Shown here: positions 37,801-42,385 of the stretch, one piece after another
Numbering within the stretch: the first letter of the stretch is position 1
Layout: every line of letters starts with the position of its first letter
Origin: Antennarius striatus
Taxonomy: Eukaryota; Chordata; Actinopteri; Lophiiformes; Antennariidae
Assembly: GCF_040054535.1 (NCBI RefSeq)
Contig: NC_090780.1
Span: forward strand, 11,932,501 to 11,996,500
Reading direction: 5' to 3'
DNA length: 64,000 nucleotides
Program-made: the position numbers and the translations under genes
The notes under the pieces: generated by a model
What the model saw: only the letters and a program-made list of their open reading frames with translations
Told to the model about the DNA's origin: nothing
Database searches by the model: none

Positions 37801-40800
37801 CAAACTGCCCACTGGTAAGAGCCCCGGCCAGCGCTCCAAGACTGAACAGTGACACCATGAAGGACCAGATAAGCTGGTTGGTAGAATCGGGAACTGGAGC
37901 TCCATATCTCAATATCCATGTTTGGTTCACAAATTTCTGTACATACTACAAAAAGGTCGGAGAGATCAAAAAGCAAGGCTGTCAAGGCATGCAACATTTT
38001 CAGGAAGCCAGAGGCACACAAATATGTAGGTCAGGTTAAAATTCTGAATTCAGGGGCGTCGCGGGATGTCGCAGTCTCTGACTGCCTTGTTATTTTGTAA
38101 AATGACTATATCCACTCTAAATGATGAGAAAATGGTATTTAGTTTAGCTGTCCAGTTTGCATCAAACCAATACAAATCTTACCTGTGCTGGAAAAACGAT
38201 GGTAGAAATTTGAATCCCAAACTGAGATGATCCCCCAATTCCCAAAATTAGCGTCAGCAGGTAAAGCCTCCAGTACTGCAGCTGAAATGTAAAGTGGAAA
38301 TTAATGAAAAACCTCCTTTTTAATTTAAGGAGACAATAGTTACTCGCAGGTCCTAATTATATCCTGTGGAAGAGGAAAGTAGGAGTTAGCATGTGAACAC
38401 CAAATAATAGTTTGAAATATTTCAAAAAATGTATTCACTTTATAATATTCATTATATATCATGGTGTTCCAGATTAGTCCTTGTTGTGCCCTGTTACAGA
38501 TACAAATTAAAACCAAAGCACCTTCTCTGTCTTGCATTGCAGACTCAGAGGAAATTTGAGTATATAAATATTTTAATTTTGAGAATTTAAATTATGATAT
38601 ACTGTAATGGCAGTAAGTAGAACTATTGTCTCACAGCAAAAAAATTCCATATCCTTATTCTTCACATATTAAGATGTTAGTCCTGACTTTGGCTTGTCTT
38701 GCGTTGCATGATCCGTACCAATATGCAGCCAAGCAGAATTCATCATCATGTCTGTTGTAAGTTGTATTGAAGGAATACAACGTGGTACATAAAAATAGTT
38801 GCCATAAAAATAAATTGTGAAATACTATGAATCACAGTCAGTGATGTAACAGTGTTCACTTACCGGTCTTGATTTACTATTCTTATTCTGCTCTGTCTCC
38901 GAGTATTGGAGCTGCAGACAAAGCAGATTGCCAGCATTAGAGAAGGATAACACATTGGTACAGTATGTTTCCCTACATATTTTGTGAAAACAAAATCAAA
39001 ATATTTTAACAGGAGTGAAAGGGATGACTTTGCCACAGTTCAGAGATATCCAGATCACAAAATGTAGTAAAAAGGATTCATTGGCAGTGACTTTTGCCAG
39101 ATTTAAACATGACATATATTAGGAACTGAACAAGTGTGAATTTGAAAAAGACACAAAAGGATGAAAGTGGAGAGAGTTAGGATTTAATTCAACATATAGA
39201 TCTCTCGTGACTTGGATAACTGAGAATCTTCACAGATGATATGTGTTAAGGACTGGCATAGACAAACCCAATTCTCAATCCATATTAAATTGCACTTTGT
39301 CATTTTTTTTGATAAGTTGCCAATTATTATGGACCTTTCAGATATTGTCCTCGTGACAACAGTGTCATTGGGAGTCATTGAGGATCAATGCACATCCATG
39401 AGAAGTAAGTACAAAATTTTATGCTTTTGTCCTGAACCCCTGTTCCTATATTTTCCAATATTTTTTAATTAGCAGTTGTCATGAAAGAGAGTAGTCTTTT
39501 ATACTGTAGCATGAATCAGAGCGAGCCATGTTCACCTACCTCTGATGGTGTATCCCCTATTTTCTTCTCTATCTCTTTTAATTCCAACTGCGGAAGGAGC
39601 ATTAACAGCAAAAAATATGAAGGATACATAAGAAATAATTGATTCAACATTTGTGTTGTTAGAGGGATGTTTTGATATTAGTGATAGCGGTGACTAACTC
39701 TTGCACCAGATTTTACATTATATAACAGTCTCATCCACTCACTGCCAAATGTACTTTACTGATTTCAAAATCATTGGTAAGGAGATTAAAACACACACAC
39801 ACACACACACACACACACACACACACACACACACACACACACACACACACACACACACACACACACACACACACACATACAAACCTGTGTGTGCCTTGAT
39901 AGTCAGAGACATGTGGCGTGTGGAGTGTACGCTTCTAAATTCTGACTGTTGTGACTACAGATTTTCCATACTTGTACATAAAGCACCAAAAGTCCAAATG
40001 TTGCTTACCTGGACAAATCACTGTCCATTTAATGGAAAGTCAGTAGTTTGAACTCCAGTTTCCCAAAGTGTGAATTCTGATGTATCATTGAGCAAGGTGC
40101 CCAATTTGTTCGCTGAGTAGCCATATGTTTATTGGAGTAGACTGAAGTTAAGATTTTATGTTTCCTATTATCAGCAACAATGAAAAGAGGAGACATTCAA
40201 TCTTTCTTTAACCTTGTTTAAGTACATGTGAAATGATTGATTCAAATTGTCAATTTCCCTTAGGGATTGGGTAATGGCATCATGACTCTTTTGTTATTGA
40301 AAATGTTAATATGAGGAAAAATAAATGTACTTCTGGGGGAAATGTACTCTGGAGGCTGCTTCTTCAAAATTTTCTCAAGGGCACTGTTCAGCATATTTGC
40401 TTGAATCACACCATTTTTCAGCAACATTATTATTATCAAAACAACCCAAGTTTGTTCAGTTTTGAAAACAAATTTGCTTCACTTCTGGTGCCAAGTGCTA
40501 TGTGACCCTAGAAGTCCTCTGTGCTAATGCCTTAAATACAATTTAAAATATTAAATACTGTATGATTAAAAATGTTAAGTCCATCAATGAGGTAATGCAT
40601 TAAGACTTCTTTGTTGAATTGTCTGTTAGGGAAACTGGAACCACAATTTTTGTAAAAATTGGTGGAAGGATGTAGTACAGGCAAAGCAGATAACTAAATT
40701 TTGGAGAAAATTTGAGTCATGGATTTCTCTGTGTTCTGTTTTCTGTTTATTCTGTCAAACAGCAAAATTTTGCTCATTGTTTTTATTTTTTGGTTCAGGC

Positions 40801-42340: not shown

Positions 42341-42385
42341 TTTCTCCTGCAGAAGGGACGCTGTAGAAGGAGCAGAAGAGCAGCA

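Follow-up and report, generated by a model that had tools for sequence, protein, structure and literature searches.

A GLUT gene carries a tandem array of five related mini-exons at its 5' end, as had been proposed in a preliminary description of this DNA. The stretch of 64,000 nucleotides analysed here (the window, C5:11932501-11996500) contains gene 2 on the minus strand, gene 1 on the plus strand and the 3' part of gene 3, all of which are GLUT genes, and the 5' end of gene 3 is carried by the following 40 kb. Gene 3 is a closer paralog of gene 2 than gene 1 is. Gene 2 is intact and has 11 core exons (E2-E12) with five short exons (U1-U5) in front of them. The array is probably the product of serial tandem duplication of a start-codon exon, the later copies of which came to be read through, so that leader sequence turned coding. 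The repeated unit itself appears, as judged from its sequence, to descend from a start-codon exon.

When U1 (from its ATG), U2, U3, U4, U5 and E2 to E12 were spliced in silico, a coding sequence of 1671 nt and 556 amino acids was obtained, with a single terminal stop and GT-AG introns. The first transmembrane-helix exon, E2 (38281-38183, minus strand, 99 nt, phase 0-0, LQYWRLYLLTLILGIGG...), has counterparts in gene 3 and in a further paralog on C11, and the remaining exons, E3-E12 (28899..37945, minus strand), form an open coding sequence that matches Pfam PF00083. The Pfam and solved-chain searches were made with a gene 2 query of 557 amino acids, which had one extra G compared with the true 556. 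The Sugar transporter family (PF00083) covered the transporter core at residues 83-536 (E 2e-86), and GLUT9, GLUT5 and GLUT7 were the best ranked of the 33 matching solved chains. A class II GLUT is recognised by a TM7 without QLS and by a TM10 in which no Trp follows the GPXXXP region (PMC12347752). Gene 2 has LINFCG in TM7 and GPAIGCLSF in TM10 (positions placed by eye), with no QLS in the former and no Trp past the GPXXXP region of the latter. The PF00083 match and the nearness to the GLUT9, GLUT5 and GLUT7 chains identify gene 2 as a predicted class II GLUT (SLC2A) transporter; the more specific label SLC2A11 or 11-like is a putative one. Compared by eye, residues that form the sugar site of other GLUTs appear to differ in E7 and E10-E11 of gene 2 (31876-32063 and 29194-29507), and the substrate may thus be one other than glucose.

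Several repeats were observed in the window. One of them, which we presume to be SINE-like, is present in four copies (2710-3078, 27881-28276, 41324-41646 and 43012-43631) in which ARAGORN called odd tRNAs; one copy is inside the intron between U2 and U3 and one is upstream of U1. A long repeat has copies at 17998-20947 and 32474-36633 that are alike in translation and partly of equal, partly of opposite orientation, and the latter set sits in the introns either side of E6 of gene 2. In addition, 62183-62671 is occupied by a short tandem repeat with a period of about 55 bp (open reading frames recur at 55-bp steps), and 51450-52626 and 60550-63156 are directly duplicated over some 1 kb or more, their translations being highly alike.

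All five units are on the minus strand. U1 (42360-42320, 41 nt) encodes MDDKFTK and is followed by U2 (41801-41754, PVSTETERKMDDESSE), U3 (40930-40883, TESEEMEKKIDDVPSE), U4 (39587-39540, LELKEIEKKIGDTPSE) and U5 (38911-38864, LQYSETEQNKNSKSRP), the last of which adjoins the membrane exon; each of U2-U5 has 48 nt and phase 0. Profiles built with one unit left out recovered that unit in every case, with E values from 2e-14 to 2e-26 (U1 9e-18, U2 6e-18, U3 2e-26, U4 9e-16, U5 2e-14), and revealed no sixth unit in the window, where the next best match had an E value of 0.2 or worse. The common donor context claimed earlier was confirmed, GTNNGTGAAC being present in all five units; this motif occurs eight times in the window, always on the minus strand, and five of the eight occurrences are the unit donors. 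The units are adjacent homologous exons of equal orientation and phase, as in tandem exon duplication. Their likeness spans about -30 to about +45, and none was seen beyond. By unit comparison and profile, a common downstream intron flank was located at 42280..42319 (U1), 41714..41753 (U2), 40843..40882 (U3) and 38824..38863 (U5), all on the minus strand as is the flank of U4 (39500..39539), in which about 8 nt are absent compared with the others. Over positions +11..+40, 19-25 of 30 bases were identical in the six pairs among U1, U2, U3 and U5, and 5-9 of 30 in the four pairs with U4, the latter being ungapped counts for a flank that is short of some bases. Between U3 and U5, 21 of 48 exon bases and 33 of the next 40 intron bases are identical, the exon having changed more than its flank.

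Units related to those of gene 2 were found in front of two paralogs. The U1-U5 profile matched two units (E 2e-14 and 2e-8) upstream of the helix exon of gene 3, which is itself intact (1524 nt including the terminal stop, GT-AG introns, E2-E12 of the same lengths as in gene 2). V5 (67986-67939 in window coordinates, LEHFETELKEDGAPRT) is a phase-0 exon of exactly 48 nt, and V1 (ATG at 70719, MDEPTE) is one of 49 nt, or of 46 nt with a poor acceptor. Besides V1 and V5, gene 3 showed nothing above noise that would correspond to U3 or U4. After these two units had been set aside, the remaining matches of U2-U5 in gene 3 stayed below the 95% shuffle value; one of U1 (72216-72149), which scored 46 where the 95% shuffle value was 42.5, was rejected as a ATGGATGGATGG-like stretch. 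The paralog on C11, whose helix exon shares 62% identity with E2 over 32 residues, has a single unit (C11:4888779-4888699, profile E 8e-8). It reads ATG GGG TGT GAG TTA AAA AAG followed by GT (MGCELKK), that is, ATG plus six codons, and its donor is about 570 bp upstream of the helix exon. Upstream of this gene, C11:4894305-4894785 holds a second, partial copy of E9-E11 with in-frame stops, which looks like a broken tandem duplicate. Unit copy number among paralogs of one genome is therefore five in gene 2, two in gene 3 and one in the C11 gene; the comparison with the third GLUT gene that had been suggested in the preliminary description gave two copies against five. The start exon of gene 1 was not recognised as a unit by the U1-U5 profile. 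Ahead of its helix exon this gene codes eight residues (MSPAVTEK, 22004-22027), exactly as first described.

A tree of the units grouped U5 with V5 (support 90/86) and gave no resolution among the remaining units, and the introns upstream of U5 and V5 could be aligned, with gaps, over about 400-500 bp. Because of this grouping and the aligned upstream introns, we infer that at least two unit copies were already present before genes 2 and 3 split.

The distribution of the units was further examined in the wider genome. A pattern of 34 core places, allowing up to three mismatches, was found at three places in the 548-Mb genome, namely U2, U3 and U4 (none for a reversed control); this pattern is narrow and misses U1, U5 and the units of the paralogs. 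A DNA search of the genome with U3 returned its self-match only, and other units were not reached either. The stretches searched with the profile came to 113.5 kb on C5, 29.8 kb on C11 and 120 kb of control sequence. Of 21 GLUT-like places, seven belonged to genes 1, 2, 3 and the C11 gene, 12 served as controls and two were left out (C21:5519206, a single open frame of 540 amino acids, and C3:15228533, E 3.5). No unit was present in the 12 control stretches, each covering the 10 kb upstream of another GLUT-like exon of this genome (best E 0.14); a start exon more than 10 kb upstream would be missed. No relatives of the array were found in separate collections of genome contigs and viral contigs. 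It is highly improbable that the units are fragments of some dispersed repeat with a chance resemblance to exons: repeated sequence is indeed common around them, but neither the 34-place pattern nor the U3 search, both narrow, found anything outside the array, and profile matches with E < 1e-5 fell solely at the 5' ends of gene 2, gene 3 and the C11 gene.

The first unit differs from the others in several respects. The acceptor of U1 that is homologous to that of U3 is at 42361 (27 of 30 bases alike) and gives an exon of 41 nt containing an ATG (42340-42338), for which reason U1 is most likely an initiator exon. An alternative form of 27 nt (42346-42320) would use a second AG. The start codon stands in the context GAGAAAATGG, which we take to be a good one. 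Thus, the earlier account of four 48-nt exons and one 27-nt exon, all in phase 0, held for U2-U5, whereas U1 is better read as an exon of 41 nt. The same applies to the proposal that any unit could be skipped: U2-U5 are symmetric phase-0 exons and most likely the only freely skippable ones, and U1, as the likely initiator, would not be a free cassette.

An ATG is kept at the equivalent place in U1, U2, V1 and the C11 unit (W1) and is lost in U3 (where it is ATT), U4 (ATA), U5 and V5. With regard to length, all five internal copies (U2-U5 and V5) have exactly 48 nt, whereas the first copies differ (41 nt in U1, 49 or 46 nt in V1). Since length has drifted upstream of the ATG in first copies and not in internal ones, it appears that translation runs through the later copies from a start farther up. 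These observations also bear on the reading that each unit is an alternative first exon with a start of its own, one per transcript being joined to E2 to give short variable tails. The ATG at the ancestral place in U1 and U2, and one elsewhere in frame in U3, would suit it, as would the example of human GLUT11, which has three isoforms from exons 1A-1C (PMC12347752). However, a start codon in every copy, as in that type of gene, is not what was found: U4, U5 and V5 are without an ATG in frame and so could serve as internal exons only, an AG acceptor dinucleotide is present in all five gene 2 units, and the second unit of gene 3 is still exactly 48 nt long with no start. We therefore regard alternative first exons as an unlikely explanation.

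The duplication of a start-codon exon was proposed because the one-copy C11 unit looks like such an exon. The ancestral unit would have comprised an upstream acceptor, a 5' leader of 27 nt, an ATG and, counting it, seven codons up to a phase-0 donor (27 + 21 = 48). After copying, the first copy would have gone on initiating and each later copy would have been spliced in whole, with read-through made possible because 48 is a multiple of three and the donor is in phase 0. In this way each later copy would add 16 residues, nine of which would come from the former untranslated leader of 27 nt. The expected tails would have 7 residues with one copy (C11 gene), 22 with two (gene 3) and 71 with five (gene 2), provided that all five units enter one mRNA, that the ATG of U1 is the start and that change ran from one copy to five. 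In the C11 unit, 27 nt separate the ATG from the place of the ancestral acceptor, as in internal copies, and the 48 nt are kept. The fact that the ancestral CAG is now CAA in this unit, the AG being lost, counts against the proposed duplication.

Splice sites were scored with a small matrix for which genes 2 and 3 supplied 20 donors and 22 acceptors. Donors were strong in U5 (9.7) and V5 (8.9), ordinary in U2 and U4 (6.5 each) and weak in U1 (1.9), U3 (1.7) and V1 (1.3), the last three being below all 20 core donors (lowest 4.7). Ordinary acceptor scores were obtained for U1 (6.1 or 6.7), U2 (8.5), V1 (8.2) and V5 (10.2), and low ones, under 20 of the 22 core acceptors, for U3 (1.3), U4 (0.7) and U5 (0.4). 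The low scores allow optional inclusion of the units and would fit decay as well. As an addition to start-exon duplication, it is quite possible, though somewhat short of an even chance, that the units are spliced as cassettes, the tail varying in 16-residue steps by tissue or stage as in troponin T. The symmetry, phase 0 and equal length of U2-U5, the weak donors of U1 and U3, the weak acceptors of U3-U5 and the likeness of the downstream intron flanks are in line with such splicing; on the other hand, a weak site may still be used constitutively, and a weak donor is also present in V1, a unit that gene 3 seems to require.

The related open units support the repeat-like, charged N-terminal tail that had been ascribed to this gene. 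The predicted 71-residue tail of gene 2 has a net charge of -10 (U2 -4, U3 -5, U4 -2, U5 +1). Basic residues next to the membrane are not clearly common to the two genes, because the whole tail of gene 3 has a net charge of -6. The tail would probably act as an acidic, flexible stretch in the cytosol, serving for instance in sorting or phosphorylation, and not as a folded part. Pfam gave nothing above any cut-off for the 71 residues (best DUF2730, E 0.018), no sorting motif of the form [DE]xxxL[LIM] was found in the gene 2 tail, and its six CK2-like sites compare with an average of 4.5 in shuffles, 26% of which reach six.

The tail is the fastest-changing part of the protein between genes 2 and 3. 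U5 and V5 share 5 of 16 residues (dN 0.43, dS 0.30, from 16 codons only), fewer than any of the 470 sixteen-residue windows of the core (lowest 7, median 12 identical), and in the core 371 of 486 codons, stop included, are identical in meaning (dN 0.13, dS 0.44). By eye, the downstream flanks of U5 and V5 are no more alike than the core dS of 0.44 allows, and selection on the flanks between the two genes is therefore not claimed. Differences between units fall evenly on the three codon positions (56, 56 and 47, each of 132), so no purifying selection on amino acids is visible among the units. Open frames are weak evidence as well, because 27% of simulations that applied equally many substitutions without selection left all five units open; four of the five are open in frame +1 as well. 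Better evidence is provided by the 48 nt, the AG and the GT, which are kept in every internal copy. A further reading is that the array is decaying, with only the first copy and perhaps U5 in use and most copies being neutral, skipped relics. Such decay would agree with the even spread over codon positions, the fact that gene 3 has no more than two units and the poor splice-site scores that several units obtained. However, all five internal units retain their AG and GT, their open frame and their exact length of 48 nt despite indels in the flanks, and the rest of gene 2 is intact; decay is thus fairly unlikely. Taking start-exon duplication further, we tentatively suggest, with more doubt than confidence, that the tail was built by start-exon copying with leader turned coding and that splicing adjusts its length in steps of 16 residues. 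If so, the even codon changes and the fast divergence of U5 and V5 would mean that selection sees the length and charge of the tail and not its sequence.

With one, two and five copies of a putative start exon in one genome, a stepwise route from a 7- to a 71-residue N-terminal tail would be visible, and with it a simple way for an untranslated leader to become protein. The paralogs would also provide tails of naturally graded length with which the role of the cytosolic N-terminal tail of a GLUT could be studied. The finding would carry more weight if the copies were spliced in a regulated way or varied in number between fish.

Among the literature matches listed, with subscription papers mostly outside reach, no GLUT with such an exon array was found. 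An array of short in-phase exons coding charged repeats, like the gene 2 units, is present in the PEVK region of titin, where it is part of a giant muscle protein and has many more exons. Vertebrate fast troponin T has a hypervariable N-terminal region encoded by exons 4-8, and it is similar in principle, since its acidic N-terminal tail is encoded by short exons, and which of them are included alters the length and charge of the tail (PMC8559874). The gene 2 units fit cassettes of this type in phase and length. Troponin T is, however, an unrelated protein for which splicing has been demonstrated, whereas that of the GLUT array is predicted, and the available part of that source does not describe its exons as copies of a start-codon exon (PMC8559874). 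Human SLC2A11 (GLUT11) is likewise a GLUT with variation in the N-terminal exon before the first helix, having three alternative first exons (1A, 1B and 1C; PMC12347752). There the exons are alternative starts, whereas later copies in gene 2 that have no ATG would be internal only and add to a long tail. Tandem duplicated exons are well known, and mutually exclusive ones resemble the array in being neighbouring homologous exons within one gene (PMC9741552). Those exons replace each other, whereas the anatomy of gene 2 fits an additive reading in which the unit is a start exon. Thus, as a tandem exon duplication, the array appears to be unusual in that it is the start exon that would have been copied.
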